From Daphnia carinata (taxonomy: Eukaryota; Arthropoda; Branchiopoda; Diplostraca; Daphniidae): a DNA stretch of 64,000 nt. Shown piece by piece: positions 749-55,190 of the stretch; position 1 is the first letter of the stretch, and each line of letters begins with the position of its first letter. The position numbers and the translations under genes were made by a program. Under the pieces are notes generated by a model. That model was given only the letters and a program-made list of their open reading frames with translations, made no database searches and was not told where the DNA came from. The stretch covers positions 3,719,679-3,783,678 of the forward strand of contig NC_081338.1 of the NCBI RefSeq assembly GCF_022539665.2, in the 5' to 3' direction.

Positions 749-1026
749 TTTTCGAAAAAAAAATGTGGCCGAAAGATTCGTCTGCTAGTCGGTAGAGCCA
801 TCTGTAGTTCTTGTTAAACACTTCATGTTCGACCAAGATATTTATGATACTACAAGCAGTGTTGTTTTGACAGTTCAAGAAACTTAGCAAATAAAAGCAG
901 AGCTAATTTTCTTGCCAAACCCTTCATTTGAACTCTAAGTCCGGCATTAATATTTAATTATATCGCGAATGAGCACGATAAAAAAAACCTAAACCATAGA
1001 TTGCTGAAACAAGTAATTCAAATAAA
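749..1026. promoter_or_regulatory. Divergent promoter between GTF2H1 and TAF11
   Basis: These 278 bp separate the two start codons and must hold both 5' UTRs and both core promoters. No good TATA box is placed for either gene. The stretch near 955-970 is AT-rich with a TCGCGA palindrome. Housekeeping genes of this kind usually have TATA-less promoters, so a shared bidirectional promoter is inferred from spacing alone. Confidence 0.6.
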
Positions 1027-1974
1027 ATGGACATGAATGTGTCAACTGGTTCCATTTCTGAAGATGGTGAAATGAGTGATGTTAACATTACTCATTCTAG
1101 TGAGAATGATGACGATGACGGAGGACAATCGACAACAAGGAATTCTTCAGTTTCCCCTTTCAAGAGCAGTTCTCGCAGAGAAACAAAACAGAGAAAGCAG
1201 GTTTCTGAATCAGAGACAGATTACGATGAAGAAAATGGAGAAATGGACCCCCTTGCAAGGATGCTTTCCACACCGACACATGGGGACGAATCCAGTGAGC
1301 CACCAGAGAAGATTCAGAAACTTAGTGATGAAAAGAAAACTGAAGGTGAATTTGTTATGCCCAAGTCATCTCCAATGTCATCCTCAGAAACCCCACCGCC
1401 AACCTCTTCACCTTCAAAAGAAAGTGAAAAAGAAGCAGAACGGAGAGCTGAGTACAGAATTAAAAGAGAGGCTGAGGAAGAGGAAAGGGAAAAAATGCAA
1501 GTTTTAGTATCCAATTTCACAGAAGAACAGTTGGACCGTTACGAAATGTACAGAAGATCGGCTTTCCCAAAAGCAGCTATCAAACGAGTATGTTCGTCTA
1601 AATTTAACTGCAATACCAAGCATTCTTTGGTAATCACGTCCTTTTTTTTCTTCGTCTTGATTTATAATAGTTGATGCAGACCATTACCGGATGTTCTATT
1701 TCTCAAAACGTGGTCATCGCTATGGCCGGCATTGCCAAAGTTTTCGTCGGCGAAGTAGTAGAAGAAGGTACGTTTAAAAAATGCAGCAACAGACTATTAA
1801 ACGTGGTCAAATGCGTGGGAGCTCACTATGAATATTCTTATCATAGCTCTCGACGTCATGGAGCAATGGGGCGATAGCGGTCCACTTCAGCCCAAGCACT
1901 TGAGAGAAGCCGTCAGAAGAGTGAGGAATCGAGGAGGCATCCCCGGCTCGAAACCATTCGCAAAGGCCCTTTGA
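1027..1974 (+). CDS. TAF11: TFIID subunit 11 (TAF11/TAFII28), complete
   Basis: TAF11 is a histone-fold subunit of TFIID that pairs with TAF13 and contacts TBP/TFIIA in the nucleus. Three exons join in frame: 1027-1587, 1671-1767 and 1847-1974, giving 261 residues and a TGA stop. Residues 1-150 are acidic, Ser/Pro-rich and low in complexity. Residues from about 158 form the TAFII28 histone fold, with [53 protein letters not shown] and [12 protein letters not shown], nearly as in vertebrate TAF11. The protein is longer than human TAF11 (211 residues) because of the N-terminal tail. Introns are 83 and 79 bp. The 3' half of this gene is the outer end of the left arm of the inverted duplication; its decayed counterpart lies at 54679-55190. 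Confidence 0.96.
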
Positions 1975-2039
1975 AACTTATACTTACAACAATCAACTAC
2001 CATGGCAGTGTCATTTATCTCTTGTAACTAAAACTTTTA

Positions 2040-2045
2040 AATAAA
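2040..2045 (+). terminator. Polyadenylation signal of TAF11
   Basis: AATAAA lies 65 bp after the TAF11 stop codon in an A-rich stretch, a normal place for the cleavage and polyadenylation signal. Confidence 0.7.
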
Positions 2046-5000
2046 AAACGTAAAAAATAGAAATATTTGAATTCTTTAACGTGAATCCCGACCTACATCT
2101 ACAAATTTGGCATCGGTTGAATTCGTTTGAGGCGCCGCGAAGGGATGAATTTCTCTTCCATACGCAAAGCTATAATAGGAATGAATGGAATGGTTTAACA
2201 TTACATAGCAGAAATACGAGTGTGAAATTACGTGAGTGATGATGGACGAATCACGCTTATGTACACTAAAACGCCTTCAGCGTGTGGACGAAGGAAGCCT
2301 CCTACGCGTTCGGCATGTATGAATGGCAGTTGATGGTGAATGAATGAACGATTGAAGTTGAAAAGCTATCAACATAGGAGAAATTTCATTTCAAAGAATG
2401 AATGGCCGCCTAGCAACAGCTATCGTCCATGAATGGTAAATGGACATGCAAACGTGGGAGTGAAGTTGAGTGGAATGCAAAGATGGGCACGGCGCCATCG
2501 TCCAGAATGAAAGCAGGGAACTGCGACGAAGCGCATTGGAGGCATTCGTGCATTTATGCAAAACGTACACACAAGGGCTCTATTACGGATAATTTCAGCA
2601 TTGCTTTCTTGTTGATTTGCACTTTTTTTCGATTGCAACGAGACTTGAACTGAGAATTCTCTAAATTTCGCATTGCTTTTTCTTATTCCGTCTGCTTTTT
2701 CCGGAAATTGACTTAACTTCGGATCCATTTTTTTTTCTGTGTGTATTTTCTATTTACTTCTTTTTCTATGCATGGATTCCTTTTCCACGGCAAGCTGGAG
2801 TAAGGCTGTGTTTTGGTCAAAGGCAATTTTGAAGGAGAGGAAATGACCGAAGAATTCGCCGAATCGTCTCTTCGGGACACGTTCATGAAAGATTTGAATG
2901 AATGAACCCATCTCTGTGAATGGGTTCATGTGAAACGGCTTCTGAGGCTTATGACTTCAAGGCTTATGAGCTAGTCATCACGTGAATAATTCATCGTCTT
3001 CTCTGTTTACTAGTACCCTCAAATAGATCAATCCCATCCTTCGTAGGAACGCGAATCCAAGATATTTGGAAACAAACATGGGGTCCCTTGCGATCCATTA
3101 CTTAACAATCGATGCGCTAACTAATTGCACCTAAACCTTCTTTTCGTTGTGTGGACGCACATAACGTTGGTCGTAGAAAAAACTAAACGCACGTTTACCT
3201 CTACTCCAGATTACCAAATGCACTTGTTATACTAGAGCAATGCGTCACCTAGTAAATGATAAATGAGATTACCTACCACAGCTCATTGGAAAGTATGCAT
3301 TGTAGATTGTACCTAGTGCTTCCCATTTCACTGATGGATGGATCATTCAATGCAAGTGCAGCCATAGTGGACGATGTCGCTGGCAAGTTATCGTATATCA
3401 CGGCGTCTAATTTTATCCATCGTCAGTAACGTTTAGAAGATGAGAAATGATGATACACTAACGGTCTAAATAGTACGCCTACCCTCGAATGATGTGAGAC
3501 TTTGTTGCTAGTTTTTTTTTTTTTCAATTCATAAATCGTGTGCAGCCTGCTCTATTTCTTCTCAGTAATAAATCTACTACCGGTGCAGTTCCTTTCCGCG
3601 CAAAAGTAAACTTCTTATGAAGAAAGGTTGTGCATTTTTTTCTTCAGAAAATCATTTGTTTGGCACGTGAGGCAGATTATGTCTAAAGATCATTCAGTTT
3701 TTTGGTTGTAAAAGAAACGAGAAAGAAATGTACCGACCTTTTTCACTCGTCGATAAGTTCATTACCCCACATAGCGACGGGACAGGGAAAGTTTGGCCTT
3801 TTGTTTTTAGTACTAGAATTATTTGTTGTTTTTGTCTATGCTTTTTGTGATGAATTGATGGCCATACCTGTCGAACATACCTTTTTATGCATACGGATGG
3901 TCTCTGCTACATACTAACACGTATGTTGATGGATGGAAAACTTGGCCGTCGAAATAGTGTCAAGTAATGCTAGAGCGTTGTAGAGCACATCGGGATACAG
4001 AAAATGTGGCCACTCTCACTCCGGGTGGAAATAAACAAAGAAGGGAAAAGAAGTCAGGACAGCCTGTCTGCGTATGAAAACGAGCCCGTCACAACAATGC
4101 AGGACGAGATACAAGAACAGCAGGTGAGGAAGTGTTCAAATGTTTTAAATGAAAATGCATATTGATGGTCGCTTAAGGCAGGGCGTTGGGTATTTGTTAT
4201 CTGCATAGTCACAAGTATTTACATCCAATGTGTAGCCACACTTAAAGGCCTGCTACCATTCGTCTTACCACCATTTGCTACGCGTACGGGCGTGTGGTCG
4301 AACATTGCCAGCCAATGTCGTAAAAACAAGCGTCTGTATATTTGGAAGAATTTCCTGACTGAGTTTTAGCTGGAGAAGAGAGGGAAGAAAACAATAACAA
4401 CAAAACAGCCACATTTAAAAAAGAAAAATAAGCACTCACGTGCAAAGATCAACGGATATTTGTTCAGCTTGTACCGGATGACCTCTGTCGTTCTGGAACA
4501 CAAGGGGAACACGGAACAGTCAAGAGGAAAAACCCGCTGGCAACCGAAAAAAGAGAACATAAAAGGCAAAGGGCCTTTATCACAAAGAGGACAAAAAAAA
4601 AACCTGAAACCGAAAGGGATGGAATAACCGTAGGTTGTTGGGTGTAGGTGGAAAAGCACCGCCGACATAATGAAATCATAAATCATTGGTTAAACACAGG
4701 CGAAAGAGAAATGCTCAAGTAAAAACATAGCCACTGAAGGATACACAGCATGAACCAATGTAATTGTGCGCCATGGCTAGCAAAACTCGTATATCGTGAA
4801 TATTTATCTGTTTTTGGATGAGAACGATATGAACAGTTAATGGGATGCAGCAGGAGTTTGGAATTTGAAGTCCAAACAGAAAATATTTTAACGTCAGCCA
4901 CTATAATTAAAATATCCAAAAGTCGTAATATAAGAGGCAATGGATTATCTATCTTTGCCTACAGCAGATTGAATTACCTTTAATGTCATTATTTTTTTTT

Positions 5001-6591
5001 GTGTCTTCGGTTGTCCGCGCTGTAAAGGGAAAGTTACGCTGCAACGTAACACTTGTTGATGTAACAGGACCGCGATGAAACGTCATCGAAATGCTGCGCA
5101 GGTTTACCTTTTTGCATTAAACACGGTTGAAAACCAAGAGACAACGGAAGATAACAAAACCTGACACTCAATAAGAAACATTCCACAATTATTCGCAATA
5201 TTTTAAGATAGGAAAAGATGGGATGGTCTTCTTGACGAAACCGAATCCCCTCTTTTATTAACCTTAATGTTTGACAAAGAAAATGAAATCACAAACTGAA
5301 CGAAATTGATTACGAAGAGAAGAAGAAGCCGTGTTTTAAACGAAAAGAATAAAGGATTAAACATTGGCTATAACTTTTTTTTTATTTCGAACCGAAAAAA
5401 AGAACAATAGCAAACATTTGCATGAAAAAGAAATAAACGGGTTGTAAGTTTCAATCGGGGAAAGGGGGTCACGAAAACAGACGATAGCAAAAACGACAAT
5501 GAAATAAAAAGAAAACTAATAAAAATATCCTTGCGCATTTAAACGAAAGGTATCTTTTCGCTGTGATTCTTGGAAAGTCGACTGGCTCGAAACATAGAAA
5601 TGAAACAAAAAATATGCAATGTCAATCACGTGCGATATCGTTGCATATCAGCACATGAGTAGAATAGCGATGAAATAAGCATTTCCAAATACCCGAACGC
5701 TAAAGAAACACCTGCGCATAATTCGTTAATTTGTTTAATTTTACGGTAGCGTGAGCTGGCATTACAAGTGCGTAAAATTACATCTAATGAGGTTACTTTT
5801 CGGCATCACGTAATGGATAAGTCGATGGAGTGCGTCATGTCCGTTACTTGTTTGATACCAATAACCAAAGGGAAAATCCAATTGGAAATTCCATTGGAAA
5901 TGAAGAATTGCCCTCTCCATTATCAATTACCTGTCAACTAGATTTAAGTTTATATTTCTAGAGCCAAAAAGTAAGAGGTTACGGAGAAGACCGTAATAAG
6001 TTGTTTGAACTTTAGACGAAATTATACCGAAGAGAAAAAGGTAACATGGGAAAACCAAAACAACTTACCTTTTGTTTTAAATGTTTTTTTTTTATATTAT
6101 GAGCGATAAAATAAAGACCCAATTACGAAGCAAACTGGAAAATGTAAATTTACCGTTTCCTTGGAAAACAAAATTTCCGGGAAATAAGTAAGTGGGTTTT
6201 TGTTGACATTTCGAAACTAAAAGCGCAATTCGATTGCCATCTTTCAAATGGAACAGTCAAAAAAATTAGTAATACAATTTCAAAGAAATTTAACCAGCGA
6301 CCAAATGTAAACAAAATAAAGATAACACTTCGTTAGCAAATAATGACTATTCATCTCGCACTAAATAACGAATCCCGAAATAATAGGGAAAAAAAAAGCA
6401 TGTCGTCGTCATTAAGCGGACCAAGCTTGGCAGTAGTGCGTGGGTGTGTGATATTGACAAGCGTGACGTTTAAAATATGAAAAATAAAATTCAACAACAA
6501 AAAAAGGGGGGGGGGGAAACGAAAATCCTTGACATAAGTGAATTTATTGCGGACCCTTTTGAGTAAGGAGGCACTACCAAGAAACGGAGGA
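2046..6591. other. Outer non-coding part of arm A, no gene seen
   Basis: No convincing coding region was found on either strand. The stretch 2160-2420 is dense in ATGAATG-type motifs. A perfect 10 bp stem with an 8 nt loop sits at 2902-2929. Several blocks (2300-2530, 2765-2945, 3380-3480) have recognisable reverse-oriented partners in 53.1-54.4 kb. From about 4.0 to 6.4 kb I could not find clear partners by eye. The position upstream of the CHRDL-A promoter and the selective survival of blocks suggest regulatory DNA. Confidence 0.6.
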
Positions 6592-6599
6592 TATCGATA
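6592..6599 (+). promoter_or_regulatory. DRE-like element TATCGATA upstream of CHRDL-A
   Basis: The palindrome TATCGATA, the DNA replication-related element bound by DREF in insects, lies about 65 bp upstream of the TATA box. The matching position in arm B does not have it. A chance match is possible for an 8-mer. Confidence 0.4.
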
Positions 6600-6657
6600 G
6601 AAGCGGGGCGTTCTGCGCGAATCCTCTTGATTTCTTACGCGGTAGGAACCTGCTCGC

Positions 6658-6667
6658 TTTATATAAA
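6658..6667 (+). promoter_or_regulatory. TATA box and core promoter of CHRDL-A
   Basis: TTTATATAAA is followed, at the usual spacing, by GGCAGTTAG with a likely start A at 6687, about 28 bp from the TATA. The sequence AGTTGATCGAC just downstream is kept in the arm B promoter. The promoter is about 8.9 kb upstream of the first coding exon. Transcription start and gene link are inferred from the mirrored pair and from the lack of any other gene in between. Confidence 0.65.
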
Positions 6668-6686
6668 TAGGTAGAAGAAATGGGGC

Positions 6687-6831
6687 AGTTAGTTGATCGA
6701 CAACGGTCGAACTAAGCGTTCCCCGGCAAAGGCTTCACCCATAATTCCCTTAAAGCGCAAAATATAAACGGTATACAATTTTCCAATCAGTAAGTGTATC
6801 TTCGTCGGAGGAATTGTTCTCAACAGCTACG
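6687..6831 (+). other. Probable 5' UTR first exon of CHRDL-A
   Basis: This stretch starts at the inferred start site and has two good donor sites, CA|GTAAGTG at 6790 and CG|GTGAGTC at 6832. It has no useful open frame, so it is read as a non-coding leader exon spliced to the exon holding the ATG at 15563. Which donor is used cannot be told from sequence. Confidence 0.45.
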
Positions 6832-8375
6832 GTGAGTCGTCCATTTATTGCCGTATTTTTTTACGCTGTTGACATTCAATTGCGCTCAGGAATAGAGCAC
6901 ACGATTAGAATAACGATGTTGCATTAGATATGCGAATAAGTTCTTTGGCACAATTATTTTAACAAGCTTCTCGGCCAATGTTTTATGGGCTATTACATCG
7001 CCTCCCTTTTTCATAGATAATGATGAATCGTGCAAGAAACCGGTTATTTCTTGCCAGTTTTTATTTCTTTGCCTATTAAGCGTCTCAAACACGTTACATT
7101 ATTCATTATTTTGCTGACCTATTAGTTGATATTAGGAATTTATTGCTCGGCTTTTTGATGAAACAAACTTTTTTGCTTGTTTGCTTTATTGCCAGTGCCT
7201 CGCACACGAATGAAATTCAACGCGATCAATTTTTTCTTTTGCTCTCCAGTTTATTTGTACGTAATAGCGGCTCTTTACCATCTCAAGTTCAATATTTTGT
7301 TTGCTCTCTTTCTTTTCATTGTTATGTCATTTTCAGTAAAAATGTTAGCAGTTACACGACATGGATTTTTTTCGTTCGTCATTACTTATCACAGTTTTCT
7401 ACACTATGTAAATTAACAAAGATAATTTTTGTTTTTCTCTGCTGATTTACCGCTCCCGTAATTCAGGGGCTCAACCTCAGGTTGCTGGGCATTTGTTTCA
7501 CGAAATTCTCGTGTGTTTTCACGACGGTCGTTTCTTTTGTTACTCCAAGTATTTTAGCCGTTACAACCACCGGAGAAATGAAGGTTATGTCTTTCAGCGT
7601 TTGTTTGCTTATACCGGATTTGGTTGTCACGTTCGGCGGCCTTTTCTGCTCGTCGAAAATTACCAATGCAGCTGTTGCCGATAATAACGCAACAGTCGTG
7701 CACATATCAGTTAACACGCTGGCCATATCCGTCGTCGTGACGAGAATACGTGATTGGCGTTCCTAGACACTTTTTTTTAGTGGTAGCAAAAAATGCTAGA
7801 AGCACAATGCATTTGCGATTATTGTAAGATCGGTTGTAGCCAGTGCTGTAAAAACCTTTGTGATGTAACACGCTATGGTCGTTATTCATTTGATTGTAGT
7901 CAACATGCGAATGAATGCAAAATTCGGATTAAGCCACAACATAATTGTCGTATAATGCTACCGCGTTTAAGCACTACGTTAACTAGGCCTGAATGTAAAG
8001 GCAATTAGCCAGTTAAAAACAAGACAGTTAAACTGGAATTTTATTTCAGGAAGGTCTCATTTGGTGTTATTTCTTTCCCTGGAACTGATACAGTAATCTA
8101 ATCGATACGTTACACTGATTACATGACTCGTGCTACCATAGCGACGCGGTTAATTGGTATCAGATGGATTAAGCATAGTCAGATGGATGGCGCGTGTCTA
8201 AAGACTTACACCCTAAAAACGTCAAACAATCTGGCCTAGGTCATGGATTACTTTCTTTTTTGCTAGGCTAGTTGTTATCTAATAGGAAAGTGACATTCCT
8301 TTGGTTACGTAAGGGTTTTTTTTTCTTTTCCGTAACACATAACACAGCTTGCACTGATTTATGTTCATTTTTATT

Positions 8376-8391
8376 CCCCCCCCCCCCCCCC
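8376..8391. repeat. Run of 16 C
   Basis: Homopolymer in CHRDL-A intron 1. Long C/G runs also occur at 6506-6515 and 46991-47001. Lengths in assemblies are often unreliable. Confidence 0.8.
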
Positions 8392-11300
8392 TCCATATCG
8401 TTCAGTTTTCATTTTTCTTATCCAAATGAATGTCGAATCGACATGATCTGGTTATTAGCTGCTTTATTTTATGAAATATAAGAGTCATGTTTCAAACAAC
8501 ATGCCACATTCACGCTTCGGTGGTCTAACATCTGGAATCATTTGCCCGTTGGTAACGTTGCAACAACAAATTAAAAGAAAAAACCCTCCCCTAAAAAAAA
8601 AAACTAGTTTCATAACAAGAGAACATTAGCTTTTGTGTTGGGGATTGTTCCGGGGATTTATTATTTTTTTAGAACGTCTTGCCATCTTCGGCCTGCTAGA
8701 AACAAAATGTATCAAAATATTTTCACACCAAAAGTAGATAAACCACCGATCCATCATCAACTGTTGTTTCATTACATTGTGTTCTGTTTCAGCCTACTTT
8801 GTTCCATCACTTTTGGTATAAAATTTTCTTTTTTTACATTAACTTAGGCTACACCTGAAAAATTTCCTTTTTTTTTTTTCTTTCTGACGTGAACTAATTT
8901 AACATGTGGATTTTTCATTTCGATTCTGAAACTTCCATTCTCTGCGTCAGCTAAAAAACGATAAGCCTGTTTTACAGAGTAATAAGCAAACCTGCGGTAT
9001 TAGTTGTTAAAGTCAGCTAAACACCAGGTGCTCGCTTCTTGAACGCCCTTCGGTGCGTGCAGTTCAGTCCAATATTCTGCTGCAACAACACCGTAAGGCA
9101 AAAATGGGAGTTGACGTCTCATCAGTCAAAGACAAAGACTTTCGATAATCACAGTCATCGTAGTGGTAGTAGTCTTCGAACATGTTCTGTTCAAATCGTG
9201 CAACATTGAGACGCAGATGTTACAGACGCCGCATCGTGCGTGTTGCAACGAACTGAACGATACGCATGCCGTTCATTATTTCAATTACTCAATGGCATGT
9301 TTAGGCGCTTCCAAAGACGAAAAAAGTCTGTTGTAGCTCTGCTTTCTCTTTATTGTCAACACATCGTCTTGCAGCTGTTGTATAAAGTAGGCTCTACTCT
9401 CTGAAGCAAAGAAACTGTTGCAGTTGCGTCGACTATGGGAAAACAAACGTCTTATTACGTGACTAAATGAGCGTTCGGTTGAATAAAAAGTACCATGAAA
9501 CAGCAGGGGGAAAGGTTATTTGGCACGGAAAATGGTAAATTCCTTCGGATGAAAGCGAGATGTTACGTGGAAAAATAGAGGAACGTAAAAAAGAAGGGGG
9601 AAAAGGACAGGTTCTCTGTTGCTGTGGAACTCTTTTGAGAATTTTAGTTTTTTGGTTTTCCATTGGCGATGGCCCTACAGTTGGGCCATGAAAAAAAAAA
9701 AAAACAACCTTCCATCGTAAAACGTCTGTCTGCTGTTATGGCTGATATGGCGCAACAGGGATCGTTTATGCTGATGAGCCAGACGCATATCATTTTCTAT
9801 GATGCAACACACAACAAACACGACGTTTCTGTTTCATTTTCAGTTTGACGGAGGGCTGGGTATACGGAACTCGCGAAGAAAAACAAGGCGAATCAATTCC
9901 TGGATCTCTTAGTTATGTTAATTATACCTCACATCTTATTGTTTCGTTGTTCTTCGATGCTTTCGTTTCCGAGAACAAAACGAACAGAATTACAAATACT
10001 GTGCTGATAGCGATGTAACAAATTGGATATATACGGCTATAAAAATTGCGTCACAAATCATCGGTTGATGCATTGACGTGAAGTCATCGAATGCGAAGAA
10101 AAGGGGGATATTCAGACGGCAAGGAGGAATTGAACAAGTTCTGAGAAAAAAGGGCCACCGTGAAAACATTATATGAATCTGCTACTGTTCAACATGAAGC
10201 CGAGAAGGTGGAGGAGGTTGGCATTAAATGGAACTCATCTCGTATGCTGATAGCAGAACATATTCTTGCCTACCCTTCTTTTTTCAGTCCAGCAATTGTT
10301 TCGAAAGAATGTAAATTCATTCCATCATCTATGATGGCATGCAACAATCAAGGTGGGTACTGCTTTCAGCGTTCATATTGGATACACGTACAAGCTCTAA
10401 TTTAACAGTCCGTTAAAATATCTTATACGAAGTGAAATAAGTTGAAGTTTAAATAGAACTAATGTAATAACGAAGCTGGTGGTCAATGCCAAAAATTAGC
10501 AACGCGCAATTCCGTGAAGAATAGAGATATGCATGCCACTGTCAGATAGAGAACTATTGAACCTTAACCAACGGACCACCGGGCGTCTGGCAGAATCCAC
10601 CGGCTTTAAAAGAAAGGCAGAAAAATACAAAAGAAAAAGACAGACGAAACGAAAGCCAAAAACAATCGTGAATGAAAAGAAGCGTCTGGATGAACGTCGG
10701 TCAAAAAATTGGCTATGTCCAAACTGATGCTGTTGTCTTCTATAACAGCCAGCACGTTCTCTTGTAGCAAATTTATAATCGCGATTCGGCTGGCTGTATG
10801 GGTTTTCATCTTTTCTCGATATTTTCGGGTCTATTGCCACGTTTAGTAGAGTACGTCTGCCTTGATTTTAAGCCAAATGCAAACGTACTAAATAGTCCAG
10901 CATATTTGTGCCCCTTTTCTGCCTTGGCTTCTCACGTATACGTATATATTTTTATCTTCTTTATTTTAGACGCCATTCATTAAAAAAAACTACTATGAAT
11001 GTCACCCATTATTTGAAACTGATGCTGGTGCTGCGTGATGTGCTATTTTTAGCCAAGCGCAGCACGAGGAGAAGCTAAGATGATGGCGAGTTTTCTCGTC
11101 TATTGTCTGACAAGGGCAAACGAATAATGTCGTCGCAGCACGTTGTAAAAAAAAAAAACGGAGGGTAGTTGCATGGCAACCCGTGATAGAAGACTGGGTC
11201 GTTCCAAACAATACTGCCACACGACGGTGTTCATAAACATGTGAGTGGTTTGATGCCGGACAGCGAACACAGTTTTAATCCTTTATATATTTTCCTTGCA

Positions 11301-12684
11301 TTCTTATTTCTTCCTTTATCTCAATAGATGAACGTAAAATAATTAAATAATTGCACATGTCCAATAAGTCCATGTCGTATAGTTACATGAAAACTATGGC
11401 GATGTCATACGCAAATTTCTATTTAAAAAAAAAAAGGCCGGTCGGATTTTTCGTAGAAAATATGTGAGGATGCAAGCCAATAGAACTCATAATAGCGTCT
11501 CGTCACCTTATTGTAATTTGTCATAGGCTAAGTGAACCGTAAGACACACACCGCCACCGTACATTCTGGTTGCGTGTTGGCACTGAGTTGAAGGCAATAT
11601 TCACTAGCCGATATAAGAACATTCCTGCGATCTTGGTGATCTGTCACTGAATTCGTGGAAGAAATAAAAAAAAACGGTGAGGGGAAATATTCCATTTCCT
11701 ACCACCAAAAAAAGACAGCATAACTATCACGATTTGCGTATGACGTTCAGGGACATTGTCCAAGAAAGCGGAAGAGATGCCAGAATGTTGTCGCATTGTG
11801 GCACAGGAATCATTTTGCCTCATATTCACTAGTAGGTCTGACACTTAACAGGAAATCGGTTTAAATATGTAGATGCCAACTTCGCTTCTCTTTTACTTCG
11901 GGTTGGTGTGATAGACTGTCAGTTGATTACATCCTACAAAGAAAGACGTAATGTCTTATAGGCAAAAGGAGAGAAAAAGAAAAGAATGTGCTACACCGTG
12001 AAGAATGCGCCGTCGACGGTTCGAAGAAAAGGCCCACCATCTAACTCACCGCGGGTGGTATTGCTTTGCTTAACTATAATAGTATACTAAGTGAAGCATA
12101 AACACTGTTGGCTCGCTACGGCATGCGGTAATCCGACGATGGTATCCAGAAGTCAATCAAATTAAAACAAACCTGAACAGTGATATTCAAATGGCTGATG
12201 AAGCTGACGTAATGAGTGTCAGACGAGAAATTGTTGCTGTTCGGGACCAACGTTTCTGCGGACATATCCCATTCATTTTTGGTCCGGATATGGACATTAA
12301 AATTGTTGAATGATTATATAGCTGCATGAAATACTAAACGGGCCACGTCATTAACGGCTTGTGGATTCCTGTTTGACATTGGTTTCGGTGATTCATTCAT
12401 GAATGAGTATTACATGCGGTTTTGTTAAGAAACGTGCGGTTGAAACCGGAGATGAGTCTACAGTAGCGATAATTCCAGATCGTTGCTAATGAAACACAGG
12501 AACCGACCTTATGGTGTGAAACGTAGAGAGAGTCTATTTGGTATTCATTCTTCATCGTCTATATGATAAGGTACCTGAAATTAATTTCAGAAATAGATTG
12601 ATAGACAAAAAAGAAAAAAAAATGGAAGGTCGATAATAAATCAGTTCAATTGATGAATATATAATATACTACGAATATTATTCG

Positions 12685-13207
12685 GAAGATCCTGATACGT
12701 GCCATCATAGTGCACGTGCCATTATCAGAGTCGCAATATCCTGTTCGTGTCATCTTTCTAGTCGCCGTTCTTGTGATGAATGAATACCGGCCCATTAGTC
12801 ACCGGCACGTATCCGCAGGCCAAGTCGGACGGCAGTTGTTTTTCGTGCCGAACGTAGTCGTCATTTCGCAGACAACACGTCGCTTTAGCATTCAAGGAAA
12901 ACCTATCCATCCACTCATCCATCTGTCTATCGTCAGCCAGTCGGATGGGACGAGGCCGGCCGACTCAAAATGGTTAAAGAAAATGAAACAAGTTTTTCAA
13001 CACATGTCGGTCTCATGTTCCATCAAACAGGGATATGTCCCGTTCTAGAGACACATGCGATGAAAGTGGCACGAATATTTCGGTGTGTCCAATGTTTACG
13101 TGTTGTCTACAACGTAGAGCATGCGACGATATCCATCATTTTCTCCAAATAAATGGTCAGTTACAGCATCAACAAGTTGTCTTTTCCCATATCGAGATGG
13201 CACATTT
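12685..13207. repeat. Strongly conserved intron-1 island, arm A copy
   Basis: About 520 bp closely match 43233-43738 in reverse orientation, with few substitutions and a 12 bp deletion in arm B, while sequence on both sides falls off quickly. It holds a 112-codon open frame on the plus strand (12710-13048), but the differences between copies are more often amino-acid-changing than silent, which argues against a protein. An enhancer under constraint or a small conversion tract fits better. Confidence 0.7.
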
Positions 13208-29600: not shown

Positions 29601-30044
29601 AAAAACATCTGCTTCTTTTAGGCGTCGGTTACTTAAATCAATAAAATCAAGGTACGTAACATAACAGGTGTAAAAGATGGCCTACTTATTTGCCCTTTTC
29701 ATAAACTGCGTTCATCACTAGGTAGCCTCTTTTTCTTACATCAATACAAAGTGCTCCAAATCGATGGAGAACTATCAGAGGATTACATGGAATTCGTCGG
29801 CGATAATGCGAAGAAAAGCATATGTTTCAGTTTTATGTTTCCACGGAATCATATCGGGTATTGTTCCCGCGACCGAGTACCGTACACCACGTCTGCTTAG
29901 ACCCGAGCCACCGAGAGTAAATGTCAAGAGGGTCTATGTAGTTTGCATTTCAGTTGAAATAATTCGTCGTTGGATGTAGGACTGATAATTTAAAAGGTGC
30001 GGCTCAGACGAGTCGCAAGCAGGGACGGGTTAAAATATTTGAGT
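26628..30044. other. Spacer between the two CHRDL stop codons
   Basis: This centre of the palindrome holds the two 3' UTRs and no gene I can support. Sequence identity between arms drops right at the stop codons. A weak match persists between about 26697-26735 and 29945-29985 (shared CCAACGAC and CAACTGAAATGCAA). Beyond that the spacer looks single-copy. No clear AATAAA close downstream of either stop was found. Confidence 0.6.
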
Positions 30045-41017: not shown

Positions 41018-44000
41018 TGCTGATTGAGTGGAGTGTATTAACGTGACGGGCTCGTAATCTTCACAAATAAAAAAAAAACAATCAATGACAATCGATTACA
41101 GAATTTTTTCTTAATGAACAACGATCACGAAATTTCGAAATCCCATCAAAAGATCTGAGTTTCCCCTTGGATATCCTCGTGCTATACCTTGAACCACAAG
41201 TCGCAATCAATGAAATGATGAGTCAATTGCCTTGGCCACTTGACTTGTTGGTTTTGTTTTAATATTTGCGCTCACAAATGAAAAGATGAACGGTGAACGG
41301 TAAAACGCTGGTTCAATCGAATTCAATTTTGTCGTGACGTTTTATCCTTGGCCAATAATAACAAAATGCGCTTTCGATTTTGTGTGTTATTCGACAGTCG
41401 GCACAATTCGGATTACACGAAACTACAATATTTGTTAGCGTTGTTCTCGTCTTTAGTTTTTTTGGCTCGCTGTTGTGCGTGGTGCGGACGCGATGCCGGT
41501 CAGTGGAAGACTGGCGAGATCCGACCGATTGGTAGCGCGTGTTATGTTTTTCGTTTTGTTTCTTTCTTCGTGCCGCTTCTCTTTTCATTCGTGGGTCCCT
41601 TTACTTGTTTCCTTCTCTCATTCTCCCTCCGTTTCACTCGATTCCTCGTCTTCCCTTTCTCTTTCTTTCCTGTCATTTATTTTCTTCCTTCGGCACTCGT
41701 CCAACAGACCAGACGGCACGGCAACGGAGGAGATCCCTTCTACATCCAGACTCTCTACGTTTCTTTTCTTTTTATATCCATGCCCAATAAATACTTTCAC
41801 TTGCAGATGAATAGATGCGCAACGACCACACTTATTATTTTTACTCGATGGCAAACGCTTGCCAAATATTCCATTATATGACATGCCCAGTTCCAGGAAA
41901 TCCCGGGAATTGTAAGAAAGCAAACAAAAAAAATAGCGCATCATCGAAAACCAGCGCTATTCTGAACACGGCAAGCTTTTTGCACACAACGCGTCATCTA
42001 CAGGAAAATCTTTCTGGCCGATTGTCAGTTTCTTGATTAAAGTTACACCGGCCTGCGCTTGATTTTATTTTCACATCATAGAACTCATTATAAAAAAAAG
42101 TACTAGAATTGTTAATTAGGTAGTCCACTGTGACGTGATCGGTAGAAAACAATTGAGCAGACTAAGGGTACTGAAAAAATAATCAACAGTGACTCTCGAA
42201 CTACTTTTCTCAATAACAAAGCGGAGCCCAACAACAGCAGTCCACTCAATGGGAGCCACAACAGCAATTTATTTAAAACGTAGTTCGATATCACGTGATT
42301 ATGATGAAAAACGAATATGGCCATTAATGGGCAACATTCTCGACGTCATTGATACTTAGATCTTTGAACGCTGACTTGTTATCGTTCACCGATTCTTGTT
42401 TCAAAAAACTTTCGATTGCGTCTTGTTTTATTACTGCTCAATAAAAATGAATTCGATGCCGTACACAATGAACTCGGTGTGTAATTCATGCCCGGGTTAC
42501 GTCGCAATCAACGACAAACTAACGCTCAGAAAAGATACGGTTCGTTCTTTGTTTGCCAATAATGTCTCTGTCATCCTGCTTTTCTCTATACTCCTTTGAA
42601 TTACGGTTACATAGGAGGTATCTCGCAATAAGCGCGTGACGATGCAAAATCCACTAGCGTGAGGCACACACGCACAAAAAATAAGAGGAGGATTATAAAC
42701 GGCCGCGGGTAAAAAAGGGAACAACAGATTCCAGGACGTAGAATGAAATTCTAAAAGCACAAAGCAGAGATATCCGCCTTTCATGTTTGCATTTTTTAAC
42801 CGCGTCTACTTCACGTTTCTACCCATAGACAAAATAAAAATTAAAGCTCTTGTCTTCTTCCTTCTTTTGTTTATTTAATTCTTTTCTTTTTTCTATATGT
42901 TTGGTTTTGTTTGTTTTCTTCACCGCCTTTTCAAGTCTGTTTTTGAGTGCCTTTCTTTTTGCTATTGTTTTGGCTTGCACGGTGGAGGGAATTCCAAAAT
43001 CGGGTTTCCCCAACGGGTGAACGACACGTCTTTCACGACACACATGCGGCGGTGAATTTTTTTTTGCTACATGTATTGATGATGATGTATAGTATATATA
43101 GAGACACAAAGGCGGATCTCACGACTCGAATTTTTTCATTCTCGCCATTTCTTTTTCTTTTCTGAACATCTCCTCATCATCTTCCTTGAATTTTGGTTTC
43201 TTAAAACTCTACTTTACTTTAAATAGATTACTAAAATGTGCCATCTCGATATGGGAAAAGACAACTTGTTGATGCTATACCTGATCATTTATTTGGATAA
43301 AATGATGGATATCGTCGGATGCCCTACGTTATAGACAACACGTAAACATGGGACACACCGAAATATTCGTGCCACTTTTATCGCATGTGTCTCTAGAACG
43401 GGACAAATCCCTGTTGGATGGAACATGAGACCGACGTGTGTTGAAAAACTTGTTTCATTTTCTTTAACCATTTTGAGTCGGCCGGCCTCGTCCCATCCGA
43501 CTGGCTGACGATAGACAGATGGATAGGTTTTCTTTGAATGCTAAAGCGACGTGTTGTCTGCGAAATGACGACTACGTTCGGCACGAAAAACAACTGCCGG
43601 CCGACTTGGCCTGCGGATACGTGCCGGTGACTAATGGGCAGGTATTCATTCATCACCAGAACGGCGACTAGAAAGGTGTCACGAACAGGATATTGCGATT
43701 CTGATAATGGCACATGCACTATGATAGTATCAGGATCCCCTCAACAATAATCTTAGTAAATTACTCGTATGAAATCAATTCACTTGACGGCATTTATCGT
43801 CCGCGTCATGTAGCGATGCAACGCACCTGCAATTACACGCATAATTTGATAGCTCACAAGCACGATATCCTTTGATCATAAATTTTAATTGAACCTAATT
43901 TGTTGATTGACTTTCTGAATTTTGTCTTAGCGTTGGAAGCTCGCTTTTTTTACCAGCGGAACGTGTGGGCGTCAATATCAAATCCATTACAGTTTGACGG

Positions 44001-47000
44001 CTAATCTTTTTACGCTCCAGCTAGCGCAGGTAAATGCTTTACCACCCACCCACAATCTTGATGGACATCTTCTTCGAACTGGTGTTTGTTTTGTGGACAA
44101 ATTCGACGTTTCAACGTCACATTCCGTAACCACCGTCTCTTCGTCTTCACAATTTAAAACCTTGCTTATTCTCGTAGACGTTTTTCTGTGTGTGTGTGTG
44201 TGCGTGTGTGTGTGTTTGACGTGATAAACTGATAATCAATCATACCAACAAAACAAAAACGATTTTTGGCACACACTTTAATAATAATAAAAAAAATATT
44301 CTTACAATAGCTAGCGGTTGTAGCGAATGGCAATTGATTCCAATGCCAGGATCAGACAAGATGCTGGCATAATCTTCGCACAATGTGATTAAAACCTCAC
44401 GAAGAAACTCGTCAGCTGCTATCGTTGACAGAAGCCCTGAATACTTCCCTCTCTCCTCCTTTTCCTTTATCCCCTCCCCCCGTCATTGTTTCTTTTTCCA
44501 CGAATTCAACTGGCGGATAACTGAGACGAAGGAATCCGCAGGAATAACTGGATTCTCATTTGTGTTCAGTGCCAAACGATTACGCGTTGTGTAACATCAA
44601 CGTTTATTATACTGGCAAAAACAAACAAGAAACCGATTGATTTCCCCGCTCTACAAAGCAAATACAGTGAGGCATCGTTTGTCAAAAGAGTCCAGCATTA
44701 ATCAACGCGCATGTGACGAGCGTGAATCTGGTGATGATGCGGCTGGAACGAACCAGTTTTCTATCACGCGTTGCCATGCAACTGAATTCCTCGTCTCGTC
44801 ACAGCAGTACACCATCATCTATGGCGCGTTGTTAGCCTTCGTGCTCTTTCATTTCCATGTTTGTTTTTGAATTCGGCAGTAGCGCGTCAGCTTCAAAAAC
44901 AATAGCCAAACATTGACTGTAGTTTCCGAAACGAAGAAGCCGCTCTCACCAGTGGCAAGTTCGTAGATAGACATTCCACGTAATAATGCACAATAGCACA
45001 ATGGTAAAAAAGTAAGTGACTAGTTGATGCTCGATTAATAACGTTCAACGGGGAAGATGGACTCAAATCGTCGTGAATCTTAACAAGTGAACGAAAGGCT
45101 TTTGATACAAAACAATTGGTTCTTTTCGAACAGCAGAGCTTCTCTCTTCATTTTTAGTTTTGTCTAGAAGAGAACCGATACATCTTGCCAAACGCATGGG
45201 TGGGCTGTTGTGGTTCAATAGTTCCCTATCTGGCACTGGATGTCAGTTCTTCTGCGAATCGTGGTGCCGTTCGTTTGGCTCTTGTCATCATCTCGCTTGT
45301 CACAATCTATTTGAAATGTTACCCCCCTACCTTTTTTTTATTATTGCTAATTTACGCATATTCATTTGCCTATTGCTTGGCACATTGTACAATCTACTTA
45401 TACGCAAGAGAAACCATCACGAATGGAATGCGTCTACAATCTTTTCTCGCTCAATCCGTCTGTTAAAAAAAAAAAAAAAGAAAGCATAGAACCGTTGTGC
45501 TATCAGCATTCTCGATGACTTCCCTTGAGTGCCAACAATTGCTGACGGAGATCGCCTTAATGTCCAGCAGTAGCATATTCGGTCTTTACGGTGGCCCTTC
45601 CTTTTTTTTCCAGGAACTTGTTTCAATTTCTCCTTGCCATTCGAAACTCCTTTTATTTTTAAAAGCTCGTTATGGGTATCGATGCCCTGGACAGCCAGAT
45701 GACATCACAGTGTCATTCAATGTTTTTCTTTGTGAGGCAATTTGTAGCTGATGGATATTCAACTGATGAATTCAATTCCTTTTGCATATGTTTGAAATTC
45801 TGTCCGATTTGTTCACACGTAAGCGAAGAACAAAAACGTAATGAAACAACGAGGATTCGAATTACGTTTCAATGGTTATTACTTCTCGAATGGTGGGTCA
45901 TCGTGAAATCGGTAATGAAACGGAAGCGTCTTGCGTCGTGTTTGTTAATGCGGTTGCATCACAGAAAATGATATGCGTCGGGGGCTCATCAGCATAACCG
46001 ATCGAGGATTGCGCCATCTCGGCAACACTAGCAGATAGATATTTTACGATGGAACATGGCCCAACTGTAGGGCCGCCATTCAGTCGCCAATAGGAAAAGC
46101 AAAAAGATCTCAATGTTCCACAGTAACAGAACCTGCCCCTCTTTTTTCATCCTTTCTATTCCTCCGTAACATCTCGCATTGTGTACCCAAGGAATTTATT
46201 CTTTTCTATGCCAAATAATAAGCTTTCTTTCCTTATGGTTCGTGACTGCAGCCGATTGTTTGGCTGGTCACGTAATCACATGTTATACCCTTTTGGTCTA
46301 GAATTGCAAGCGTAACGTGCCTCATCCTTGCGTGTTTGGTTTTTTTCGGCGAAATAGAATATATAGCCTAGTGAACAACAGCTGCAAGGCGTTCGCAGTA
46401 AAAAAAACCAGAGATATGTGTCTGGTGTCTACCGCATCAGACCTCCCTCCCTTCCTAGTTTCGCGAATTTCGCGGCATTTCGCAAGCGCTTTAACATGAA
46501 ACAGAACCGAAATAGTTTGAAAATAGAATTCGATTATTCAAATGATGGAAGGTGGGATGTTTAAGTAGGACTTGTTTTCTACTAACCGTCTATTGCGCTA
46601 GAGCGCCAAGCAAACCTGTGCGGCTATATGCAGTGTATGATTAGTCCGTATCCAGCTTACTTGCTGAACGCATACATAATCATCCTCGAATTGCTTTTCA
46701 GAATTCTTTCGTTTTTTTTGTGATTGATCGCCAACTTGCATATTTTGCTTTATATGCGCTAGTCTTGGACGTGGAGGATATATGCTGGCATTAAATCAGC
46801 CGACCTAAAAAACACATGCCGTCAGTCTGGTTTGGTGGGTAAACCAAAAAGGCAATACGATTAGCCGATACTTTGCGGTACAAGTTATTCGCTCGACCCA
46901 CTCGGTATATTTGTGGGGTATACCTGTGCCCGTTTTTTATTTAAAGCAAATTATTCATTCTGTTAAGTGGCTTAAGGGCGGGGATGTTGACCCCCCCCCC

Positions 47001-48974
47001 CATCCGTCAAAGGAGCTCGTCGTATTGTTTGACACACACAAAGAAGAGAATGTAAGATGCCCAATATTTTGGAAGAAGGCACCTAACGCGGATGATGGAA
47101 TGAAAGACTGAATGGAACACGACGGATTGGAGCGAAACATCTCTGGATGATGGATGGTTTCGTTTGAACGGCAATATTTTCTCCCTTATAAATCTACTAG
47201 GTCAAGGATAGCAAAAAAAAACAAGAGAAAGTACTGAATCTTTGTTGGAATTTCACTGCGATGAAAACATTCAAGCACATACCCCATCAATAGATTGCAA
47301 GTACACGAAATGCCTCCGCTTGGATTCATGTCAATCAAACGTGTGACGTGTGCCACGAGAAGCCCACGACTCTTGAAAACTTGCGTAATAAAATCCGGTA
47401 TTTTTATGTACACACATATGTATATATATAAATTAGGAAAGAGAAATAAAAAAAAAAAGCAACTTAGACGACCTAGCCAACTGTTACAACAAGACGGGCC
47501 ATCTCGTGATATCCATTTGTGGCACGCAATCCGAGTGTGACATCACCCGGAACCACAAAAACCCGTTCAGCTTATCGATCACGTGATTAAAATCGATCCT
47601 GTAGGAGCTGTTGGATATTTCTAGTTTTCTTGCTCACTAGAAAATGCTCCCGGACATCGTCTCCAACTAGTCTCTCACGTTTTCGTTCATGGAGCTTCCA
47701 CGATCCGGGTTTGAACACACACGTTAAACATTGCATGCTTATCATTTTCTTTTGAGGAAAAACACGGGAATTTTGTTTGTTCTTTAATTCAATAAAAGGA
47801 CTCGAGTGTTCAAGAGAATTCAGCTAATGGCAGACGTGGAAAGAATTTGATAAATACTTCAAAACGATCGATTGAGACCTGTTCTTTTGTCTTCGACGAA
47901 GATAATGCGAGATTAAAACTAATCAGAAAAGCACATGCAGTTGGAGTTAAGAAAACAAACGAAAGGGTATCTAAAGAAAATGTTCATCATTTATGCTCGT
48001 CACGACGACGCATATGACCAGTGCATTAATTAATGTGCGCAAGTTTTGCTGGATATTTGCATTCAATATCAGCTGCTGTTGCATTTGTAATGCTGACGAG
48101 GTCTAATCGAAGCCGCCAAACGTCACGAGCGAATCCGGTCGACAACACAAGAAACGTTTCACCGCCATTTCTCTCTGTCTTCGATGATGACCGGCTAATA
48201 CCTGGTCTACCAAAACCCAACCGCACGTTCGTGAAATGGGCAAGGCTTGAAAGACGTAAGAATTTTGTTTTGATGTATGCAACCCATTGAAAAACCCCAT
48301 AGTAACCAACAGGACAAGTTTTTGCAATGTATGTCAAAACCCTATACCATTCCACTGAATAAAATCATTTAGTTTAGCCGTTAACTTGTCGTGAAATCAG
48401 CGATCTACTTTGTTTCAAAAAACAAACAGAAAAAAATAGCAAATGAAACGTAAGAGATACGATTACGCGATTTTGATTGAAGCAAATGCCAAGCGTAACG
48501 TAATCGCGCGAACGTAACTATAGTAGCCTTGACACAACAAATTCACATGGCAGAAAGCTGATAAATTGAAATATCACAAATGAATAGTACAAAAAAAGCA
48601 AAGAAAAAAAGAAAAAACTCATATTTCCCCTGTCGTTTTAAAAACTTGTTATTGATTGAAAAAAAAAAGGAAAGGTATAGACAAAAAAAGCGGGACGGTC
48701 ACGCTCAATAACACGTTTTCAACGTCTAACGACCCACCATTATTTTAATAACATACTCTAACTATTATATAATGATAACTGCGCGTGTTATAATAGTGCC
48801 GGAAGAAAACGATATAAATAGCATTGGAGACTTACCGCTATGAAAACGTTCAGGGACTTGAAGTGGAAGGCAGGTGTGATTCCCTAATTAAGATGCGCTG
48901 TTTCTGCACGAATCGTTTCTCCTTCTGGCTTCAAATGTCAGGCTTATTAGATAATATGTGAAACATGCGCTTAC
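41018..48974 (-). other. Long first intron and leader region of CHRDL-B
   Basis: About 8.0 kb with no supported gene, holding the partners of the arm A intron-1 blocks (42.98-43.12, 43.23-43.74, 44.74-44.80, 45.17-45.25, 45.90-46.10 kb). The near-identical part ends at about 41.83 kb. A TG-rich microsatellite lies at 44187-44216. Confidence 0.55.
43233..43738. repeat. Strongly conserved intron-1 island, arm B copy
   Basis: Reverse-oriented partner of 12685-13207. See that entry for what the comparison shows. Confidence 0.7.
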
Positions 48975-49040
48975 TCGTTGTGTAACGCTGGGGTCGACAG
49001 TCGTCGATCAACTAACAGCGGCGTTTATTTGTCCTCCATT

Positions 49041-49050
49041 TTTATATAAA
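49041..49050 (-). promoter_or_regulatory. TATA box and core promoter of CHRDL-B
   Basis: Read on the minus strand, TTTATATAAA is preceded by GGAACCTGCTTGC and followed by GTTAGTTGATCGAC, almost as in arm A. The start-site element is GCTGTTAG here against GCAGTTAG in arm A, and the spacing is about 4 bp longer. A donor GA|GTAAGCG at 48974 could end a short leader exon. The DRE-like site of arm A is missing. Confidence 0.6.
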
Positions 49051-52000: not shown

Positions 52001-54678
52001 ACAAAGATAATAATATCCTCTACGCTCAGTTGGGACCCAACTCAAATTCCAAGTCAATCTTTTTCGCTGTGGAGTATAGAGTGGCCCGCAGCACAAATGC
52101 AAATGAACAAAAGTCATCGTCTGTGAAGGAAACCGTGCAACATTTTTCAGAGAATCGAGATTCGTGAGTGTAATCAGATCTAAACGAACCCAAAAAAAAC
52201 TGTTTCTTGCTTCAATCGACGTTTTGCTTGGAATAACACCATCGGTGATGCGACCAAAATTTCACAGCAAAGAAAAACAGAACATCCGGCAAGCTCAGCA
52301 CGTGACGGTTTTAGGAGCGTCAAAAACTACACAAGAATAACGGGGGGAAACCAGAGATTGCACAGCTTCTACAAATATATGCACGACTTTTTTTTTTTTT
52401 TTTCTTGTAGATTTTTTTTTTCCTCTGTTTGTCTTTGTCTCTTTGTCCAGGATCTACGCGTAGGTGTCGACCACCTACCCCAACCGATTTTGGAAGGCGA
52501 AAAATAGCTATTCCGTCATGCAGTAGTTCTTGGCTATATATCGTGTGCGTTTGTTTTCTTTCGAACATTGTCTTTATTGACGTCAACAAAACGATAAAAA
52601 TTGAGCACACCAACTATAGCGATGCGTCATATCTGATTGCTTTAAGTGACAGTTAATGGGCAATGCCACTTATGGCCGGGCATATTGCATTATGGATGAC
52701 TCGGCGATGGATAGCAGGTAAATGCATAACGTAAATTCTGAAAGAAAAAAACAAAACAGTTCAGAGCAATTATCAATGTATCTATAAATCGCTAACAAGT
52801 ATACCAACGTACATGAATGAAAAACGATCGAGTTGGCGTAGAGTAACACAATCCCGTCTAGATGATTTGCTGTTTAATAACCCGGAAGACTCATCCATCA
52901 GCGGAAGGAAAGCCGTCGTGTTTCAGCCAGTATTTGCACGGATCCTGACGTGGAAGAATAACATTTGCCACGTGCCGCATATTTATTTAATTTGATTTTG
53001 TTTCTATTTTTTTTTATACCGGATTCGGAGGTCAATCCTTTGGCACTTTAGTGTCGACGTGAAGAAGAATGAAATGGCTCGTAGATTTATGGCCCGAAAA
53101 GAAAATACGATTTATCTGTAAAAAACCAGCAACAAAGTCCCGAGTGTAATTCAATTGAGCTCGTACAAATGTAAGCCGTTCGTTGATCATCCATTCCTCT
53201 TCCCCTCTTAATGTTTTCCATGACGGATGCGATTATGTAGCCAGTGATGTACGATACGGACGCAGGCATTGGGGGCTTCATCCATCAGTTTGAAGAGGAG
53301 TAGCTATGGAGAAATCCGTCTCACATGCTAGTCCGCCCCCGCAAGTGTGGATGCACCCCTACCAGAGCCTTTAAAAATATACACCACGGGCTCTTGTTGT
53401 TCGTATTTTTCAACGGGAAATGTATTCCATCATCGACATGATCGAAAGATCTTCCACACTGGGGATTCCCCACACATTGTCCTTACTATGCAGCGAGCAG
53501 CCAAACCACTTTAAACATTCAAATTTGTTTTTAAACAGCGGTTCTCACACCTACATGCAATGCAAAATTCGCCCTCCAACCACTTCATCAATTCTTTGAT
53601 TTATTATTCCTTTTTAACAAAGACCGGAATGGCTCTGTTTTGGTGTACGAGCTGCGCGGCACAGATAGTCGGGGACGTCTTCGACGATCGATCTGCCTAA
53701 CATCCATTGACTGGATGCGTCCATTCAATCCATCCATTCATAAATTTATCCAAAGAGACGTAGTTCTTTGCTTCCATTTTCTTCCTGCCGGAATTGACGA
53801 TGAAATAGCGCCAGCTTCATTCAGTTTGCCGTAGAAAATATGGATATGGCATGCAAATAGCAGCAGTAAAATAAAGAAGGATAACCTTTAAAGACGCACA
53901 GAGCCGATTGACTGCATCTAGATCCACATAGACGCCACAATACGAAAGAGTACGCGGAATAAAAATTTAAAGAATTTCTCGTTGATGGCCTTTCGTGTAA
54001 AGACGCCTACAACATAAGCGAATGATGAGGACATTCATTCAGAACATTCGTTCCGATATAGCACCCATGCATTACGAATAACGCAATTTTTTTACGTCAA
54101 TGCCCGCACATTGCTCAAGCTTGTCCTTCACACAGTTCCTTCACTCTTTCATTCATGAATGATGGCGCCGTGTCCGTATAGTCAACTCGATATGACTCTC
54201 GGTTTCCCATGTCCATTACCCGTTCACGGACGATGGCTACTATTGGACGGCCATTCATTCATTCATGGCAATGGAATTCTTTGGCGTATTAAAGCATTCA
54301 TTCACTGTCAAGCAATCATTCATACATGATAAACGCGTGGGAGGAGCATTATTCGTGTTACTCACTACGACGTTCTTTACTGTATGTACGGCACGCCCTA
54401 CTGTCATGTCCTCGATGCATGACACCGGTATATCATCGATCAAATGAAATCAGTCCACCTTCCATCCGTGTAATGTTTGACAGTATCATTCGCCTCTAAT
54501 TTTGAAGAAATCTGAAAGAGTAAATCAAAATGCAGCACCCTAATAACTTAGTCTCTGCGTCATTTACAAACGTATGTTGATTAATTTTTTGTAAATGTTT
54601 TTTTGCCAAAGGCATTTAAGTTTACGTGGGAGGAATGAGATTAACACGATAACTGAGTTTATCACTAAACTTTGAATT
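49051..54678. other. Outer non-coding part of arm B, no gene seen
   Basis: No supported gene on either strand. Blocks at 53.16-53.28, 53.69-53.85 and 54.13-54.37 kb match arm A in reverse. The last is rich in ATTCATTC motifs, the complement of the ATGAATG cluster at 2.16-2.53 kb. The part 49.2-52.5 kb has no partner I could recognise. Confidence 0.55.
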
Positions 54679-55190
54679 TCAAAAGGACTTTAGCGAATGG
54701 TTGCGATCAAGCCTTCTCTATTCCTCACTGTACCGACGAGCTCGTTTTTTTTTTCAAGTGCTTTGGTTGAAGTGGAACACCATCGGCCAATTGCTCCATG
54801 ACGTCAAGAGCGGCGATAAGAATATTGGAAGTCAACTCCCACGCATTTGGCCGTGTTTAATAGCTGACTGCTGCCAGCGTCACTTAACGTACCTTCTTCA
54901 ACTACTTTGCCGACGAAAACCTTGGCGGTACCAGCAGCAACGAAGACCAGCACGTTGTGGGACATTAAACAGCCGGGCAATGGTTTGCATCAACTATTGT
55001 CCGTGGAACATACTCCATGATTACCGAAGCGAAACCACAGATACATTGGGCAATTCTGCTGTAATCTAGGGCAACTTATTTATGTGATGGCTGCTTCGAG
55101 AATGCCTGATCGTACGTAAGTTTCGTAACGGCTCATATTCGAAATTCGATCTTACTCTTTGTCTTTATCTTTTCCTCTTCGTTTTTTTTT
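54679..55190 (-). pseudogene. TAF11 pseudogene fragment at the outer end of arm B
   Basis: On the minus strand the 3' half of TAF11 can be followed in order: the tail of exon 1 (about 55190-55085, with CGTTACGAAA and GCAGCCATCA), intron 1 ending ACAATAG, exon 2 (54993-54893), intron 2 (82 bp against 79), and exon 3 (54810-54679) down to the position of the stop. Exon 2 has 101 bases instead of 97 and exon 3 132 instead of 128, so the frame is lost. The intron 2 acceptor AG has become CG, and an A run interrupts the histone-fold helix in exon 3. Introns are kept, so this is a segmental copy and not a retrocopy. The N-terminal half and start codon are absent. Confidence 0.9.

Follow-up and report, generated by a model that had tools for sequence, protein, structure and literature searches.

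An apparently real, old inverted duplication in a Daphnia carinata chromosome with two chordin-like genes probably homogenised by gene conversion

Ectopic gene conversion is described for the palindromic gene pairs Hsp70Aa/Ab and Amy-p/Amy-d of Drosophila (PMC3924832, available part), and large inverted repeats with arm-to-arm conversion for the palindromes of the human Y chromosome (PMC3723533, excerpt). In Daphnia, gene conversion is discussed for the Dscam exons (PMC3236188) and for mutation lines of D. obtusa (PMC12926508), as far as the accessible parts of these sources go. Among the titles listed for Daphnia on inverted duplication with gene conversion, or on chordin-like genes, none names the locus analysed here. 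This locus is a stretch of 64,000 nucleotides of the Daphnia carinata genome (positions 3719679-3783678 of contig NC_081338.1, C8 below; the whole stretch is called the window), which contains an inverted duplication with two chordin-like (CHRDL) genes, L and R. The genome searched comprises 108,149,354 bases in 106 contigs. The duplication is old and apparently real, judging from the assembled sequence, and we consider it highly probable that the two CHRDL genes were homogenised later by gene conversion between the arms.

The locus resembles the Hsp70 and Amy pairs in having two linked, mirrored genes that form an old, homogenised pair, and conversion is the cause named for those pairs (PMC3924832, same part). 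In the amylase genes of D. pseudoobscura conversion is, according to that part of the source, confined to coding regions, whereas at the Daphnia locus the introns are homogenised too; the arms are here about 25 kb long, the duplicated gene is of the chordin-like type, and at least one tract is shared with a third gene outside the pair. The Y-chromosome palindromes have arms more than 99.9% alike (PMC3723533, excerpt), whereas only the gene blocks are alike here, identity over the whole arms does not reach the >99% typical of such palindromes, and no sex chromosome is shown. The characteristics of concerted evolution found at the locus are linked inverted paralogs, genes more alike than the flanks copied in the same duplication, and identifiable conversion tracts. 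Mirrored pairs homogenised by conversion are thus already known, and the Daphnia pair is a further case with unusually good internal controls.

Comparison of the window with itself (blastn) gave 11 colinear inverted blocks (E-values from 6.6e-6 to 0; coordinate sums of 55.7-56.7 k), running from 1666/54998 to 26628/30044; a single direct repeat was found, outside this series. The left arm (1666-26628, forward strand, 24,963 bases) contains the 3' portion of TAF11 and CHRDL gene L together with about 13 kb of DNA upstream of it; the right arm (30044-54998, reverse strand, 24,955 bases) has the mirrored order, with CHRDL gene R and a TAF11 fragment at its outer end. Recognisable homology of the arms stops at the stop codons of both CHRDL genes, and the spacer between them (26629-30043, 3,415 bases) gave no matches other than to itself and the arm edges (27 and 29 bases). 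A comparison with shorter words added weaker islands on the same inverted diagonal, several of them only 20-40 bases long with E-values up to about 1, so that chance matches are possible among them. The preliminary description had announced an inverted segmental duplication of about 25 kb with a spacer of 3.2-3.4 kb, and both agree with the self-comparison; its limits of 1475-55190 overshoot the arms by about 190 bases at either end. The mirrored order that it reported for the upstream blocks is present, but outside the gene the arms are mostly decayed and survive as islands, and the later homogenisation of the gene was missing from the history that it gave.

The divergence between the arms is a mosaic. 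Identity is 97.5% in the gene block (20265-26628), 94% and 90% in the two parts of the exon-1/first-intron block (14614-17535 and 17618-18700), 77% at 18841-20000, 85% in an upstream island (12662-13486) and 69-92% in the outer islands. The corresponding divergence (K) is 0.019 in the gene block, 0.059 in both parts of the exon-1/first-intron block, 0.208 at 18841-20000 and 0.127 in the upstream island. To the left of 12662, K is 0.245-0.437 in 9 of 13 blocks (the TAF11 piece, at 0.245, included) and 0.05-0.16 in the remaining four, which are 20-40 bases long; these values understate the drift, since the islands were picked because they could be aligned. Of 11 intervals tested between islands, 10 were more alike than a reversed control, by 0.02-0.11 in identity, and one was not. 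Within the gene block, 122 of 6,348 aligned sites differ: the 1,448 exon bases have 25 substitutions and the remaining 4,916 bases have 97, of which 85 lie in intron 4, and the non-exon bases are about as alike between the arms as the exons. The longest run of identity (1,249 bases at 23988-25237, with the end of intron 4, exons 5-6 and introns 5-6) was reached in none of 20,000 permutations with the differences placed evenly. The near-identity of the gene blocks, while the outer arms survive as islands, suggests that the duplication is old and that the genes were homogenised later.

The third member of the family, gene B (equal to protein P0003), lies on the reverse strand at C8:3860608-3864883, 77 kb beyond the end of the window, with its first exon at C8:3865325-3865233; 512 of the 514 residues of P0003 were mapped piece by piece onto this locus, and all 27 matches of the CHRDL family in the genome fall in L, R or B. 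Over 477 codons, synonymous and nonsynonymous divergence (dS and dN) are 0.062 and 0.005 between L and R, compared to 0.876 and 0.13 between L and B. Intron 4 of L keeps one match of 59 bp to gene B at the thresholds used, indicating that this intron is not constrained as a whole. These data bear on the idea that selection alone made the mosaic, with the gene and its regulatory elements conserved and the rest neutral. The outer islands, 69-92% alike in mirrored order, might be elements under constraint, and gene B also retains the 59-bp intron piece; but in the gene block the arms are about as similar outside the exons as within them, yet intron 4 hardly matches gene B, and dS is 0.062 between L and R against 0.876 to B, so that we regard this explanation as very improbable. 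The 59-base piece itself (23367-23424 and 33246-33303, 85% to gene B) is a possible conserved non-coding element.

Conversion in this gene family is also suggested by a stretch of 128 bp at exon 7 of L (25234-25361, forward strand), which matches gene B (C8:3861803-3861676) without a difference. At 13 sites within it R has another base, L being equal to B at all of them, and on both sides of the stretch L and R closely agree and B differs; a permutation on 12 of the 13 sites gave 0 of 20,000. Across 25 scored sites, gene B has the state of L at 19, that of R at 4 and another state at 2. The stretch is most likely an ectopic conversion tract between L and B, which are about 117 kb apart. A B-type protein of D. 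sinensis (P0009) carries R-type residues at the tract, and the exchange may have run in either direction.

A decayed copy of the outer half of the right arm (copy T, C8:1877610-1898378, about 1.9 Mb away) serves as a yardstick for the age of the arms. It matches the right arm at 52745-54581 (89%) and 43095-44875 (86-88%), with K between R and T of 0.100 (1,830 sites) and 0.110 (1,519 sites). Over about the first of these intervals L and R are 0.492 identical, compared to 0.435 and 0.429 in reversed controls. A K of about 0.10 between R and T where L and R hardly align indicates that the split between L and R is the older one; most likely the L/R split came before the R/T split, and parts of the inner arms were made alike later. 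The genome search for the family found no CHRDL match at copy T. Between its matching parts lie about 17 kb with open frames labelled retroelement-like by eye.

The ends of the arms suggest which of them is the copy. The TAF11 gene (1000-1974, forward strand; Pfam TAF11 at 1000-1671) stands at the left end of the duplication, as the preliminary description had it, and the homology of the arms begins at the end of its intron 1 (1666). The outer end of the right arm is a TAF11 fragment (exons 2-3; 54677-54998, reverse strand) with a broken frame, 75% identical to 1666-1976. With TAF11 and its first exon at the left and the broken fragment at the right, the left arm is probably the original place and the right arm the derived copy.

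The history that we propose would have started with the copying, in inverted orientation and to the right of the original, of a segment with one end near TAF11 intron 1 and the other at the CHRDL stop codon or beyond it; the spacer may contain the true inner breakpoint. The outer DNA would then have drifted until much of it hardly aligned, and the hitch-hiking TAF11 piece would have broken. The CHRDL genes, and to a lesser extent the exon-1 block, would have been overwritten repeatedly by conversion between the neighbouring arms, the other arm acting as template after a double-strand break, and at least one tract would also have been exchanged with the third family member about 117 kb off. The result would be the convergent pair seen today, which encodes two near-identical, probably secreted VWC proteins, with upstream DNA that has largely diverged. 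Biased conversion was also considered from the GC content, which is 44-45% in the large intron of the gene block and 39-40% in the outer arms, but the intron of gene B has 43%, and this reading was not used.

Several points weigh against conversion between the arms as the cause. The DNA comparison covers one Daphnia genome, which does not fix the age and spread of the pair, and protein data cannot separate L from R in the relatives. The spacing between well-supported islands in the left and right arms is often kept although the sequence is nearly lost (391/435, 892/844 and 1761/1767 bases), but it is not kept elsewhere (2614/3499, 846/568 and 603/428), and the agreement is partly built in, the anchors having been chosen on the diagonal. 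Conversion would have been patchy even inside the gene block, where 74 substitutions fall at 21515-23014. The upstream island would be only partly homogenised, with K between L and R of 0.057 against 0.114 between R and T at 12662-13132, and of 0.109 against 0.113 at 12662-13360. A later duplication that replaced the inner part could, moreover, look alike. In that case an old inverted duplication would have had its inner part replaced by a second, young copy of the gene block, also inverted, and conversion would not be ongoing; this would agree with the sharp edges of this block, the inner one at the stop codon and the outer one at 20265. We consider such a replacement improbable: there are more than two levels of divergence (0.019, 0.059, 0.127 and 0.208), and some of these are separated by stretches that can hardly be aligned; the gene block is itself uneven, with 39 substitutions in about 500 bases at 21515-22014 and none at 24015-25014; and the 128-bp tract common to L and B shows that conversion operates in this gene family.

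The structure was moreover read from the assembled sequence, and large inverted repeats are difficult to assemble, so that an artefact of assembly, or the head-to-head joining of two haplotypes, has to be weighed as well. The outer arms are, however, too diverged for alleles, and the TAF11 fragment at the end of the right arm is decayed. Five stretches were searched in the assembly and yielded no extra whole copy: 8000-9000, 3600-6100 and 46300-48900 match only themselves, the spacer gave the matches stated above, and for 20265-23900, from the gene block, the matches are in the two arms and in gene B only. The window contains no N and lies inside a contig of 8,392,112 bases. An artefact of either kind is accordingly very improbable, and we retain an old inverted duplication followed by homogenisation of the genes.

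The CHRDL genes L and R are both open, have 10 exons each and are convergent (tail to tail), so that the preliminary description of two intact, facing genes was right. Gene L (15563-26627, forward strand) has exon 1, with a signal-like sequence, at 15563-15656 and exons 2-10 at 20695-20843, 20915-21011, 21359-21588, 24774-24867, 25030-25132, 25237-25439, 25643-25887, 26188-26347 and 26461-26627. Gene R (30045-41017, reverse strand) has exon 1 at 41017-40924 and exons 2-10 at 35974-35826, 35754-35658, 35312-35083, 31896-31803, 31640-31538, 31433-31231, 31030-30786, 30484-30325 and 30211-30045. Exons 2-10 are of equal lengths in both genes and encode 481 residues with 5 amino-acid differences; exon 1 adds 5 more differences within 32 residues, and its splice phase matches. 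Exon 1 was placed by hand in both genes, at open frames that lie 5 kb upstream in each arm and match the start of protein P0001. The start encoded by exon 1 is hydrophobic in L and R, as read by eye, and the two products are probably secreted, near-identical VWC proteins.

A mirrored TATA promoter had also been proposed. If the TATAAAG at 20479 was meant, this is not supported as the main promoter, as the motif sits in intron 1 of gene L and no TATAA[AG] was found in the approximately 260 bases before the exon-1 ATG of either arm. There may be a second transcription start at the intronic TATA motif.

Pfam reported three VWC stretches in gene L (PF00093, E-value of 2.4e-25) and no other family at E 0.01, PF19548 among those not reported at this cut-off. 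PF19548, which we take to be the conserved C-terminal region of the CHRDL family, is listed in precomputed data for the locust protein P0010 and not for the Daphnia or barnacle relatives; PF23334 is in the precomputed list for the full-length Daphnia relatives. The name chordin-like is therefore used for gene L by similarity and not for full membership of the family. CHRDL1 and CHRDL2 have a layout of three VWC domains, which the L protein has in common with them; the PF19548 region distinguishes the locust homologue from the Daphnia proteins, for which BMP binding is putative. The spliced L protein (481 residues, exons 2-10) had 17 matches among 8,000 scored candidates. Its identity is 95% to P0001, 87% to P0002 of D. 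pulex, 78% to P0003 of D. carinata and 78% to P0004 of D. pulicaria, and outside Daphnia the named matches with a coverage of 96% are both called 'chordin-like protein 1', one from Schistocerca (34%) and one from Amphibalanus (32%). The records of the Daphnia relatives bear the names 'uncharacterized', 'von Willebrand factor C and EGF domain-containing protein-like' and 'NELL1-like'. One relative with a solved structure was found (chordin, 9rd6); NCBIfam gave no family for P0001-P0003, and an Rfam scan of the window gave nothing at gathering scores.

In the protein tree L and R stand together (98/96), with P0001 next (95/100) and with P0002 and P0004 unplaced. A single duplication older than the Daphnia subgenera, explaining both L/R and B, is not claimed, given the position of these two proteins. 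Among 24 informative columns of L, B, P0002 and P0004, 9 join L to P0002 and B to P0004 (7 of them C-terminal), 14 group by lineage (13 at positions 141-330; 2 hold for L but not for R) and 1 is crossed. This protein mosaic across subgenera would fit a conversion network of L, R and B. It is conceivable, but rather doubtful, that these three genes form a long-lived network of about 130 kb kept for the dosage of a BMP-type antagonist, with near-identical proteins under different control and the mirrored islands as duplicated enhancers. Altered dosage or split expression of the doubled gene is likewise possible, as conjecture.

Outside the genes, the exon-1/first-intron block (14614-18700) is mirrored at 41969-37973 and contains a dispersed-repeat piece (17737-18027) with at least 35 matches elsewhere in the genome (66-86%). 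The mirror of the upstream island is at 43763-42969, and its part 12662-13132 also matches C8:1897767-1898231. The outer mirrored islands, on the forward strand at 9516-9825, 2393-2513, 6132-6204, 6596-6720, 7613-7754, 10118-10259 and 11167-11206, are possible candidates for regulatory elements. A ten-base tandem repeat of 3.5 copies (36190-36224) is listed for the right arm and not for the left. Among the neighbouring genes, Pfam matches TFIIH p62 at 139-666 and peptidase C54 at 61-62 kb, and the histidine phosphatase family at 58936-59379 (above the cut-off) and 56063-56506 (below it, E 0.001). The latter two belong to tandem histidine-phosphatase-like genes to the right of the duplication (55798-57712 and 58580-60586), which also contain the one direct repeat that the self-comparison of the window gave (56112-56284/58979-59151). 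Two such genes thus stand where the preliminary description had placed a MINPP1 flank, and the name MINPP1-like is our assumption.

The locus offers a clear case outside Drosophila: the decay of the flanks, the break in the TAF11 piece carried along, the copy elsewhere on the chromosome and the third member of the family jointly indicate that a mirrored gene pair was homogenised after an old duplication. Daphnia alternates clonal and sexual reproduction, and the locus would allow conversion tracts to be measured in this genus. It also calls for caution, as gene ages taken from coding similarity can come out far too young.

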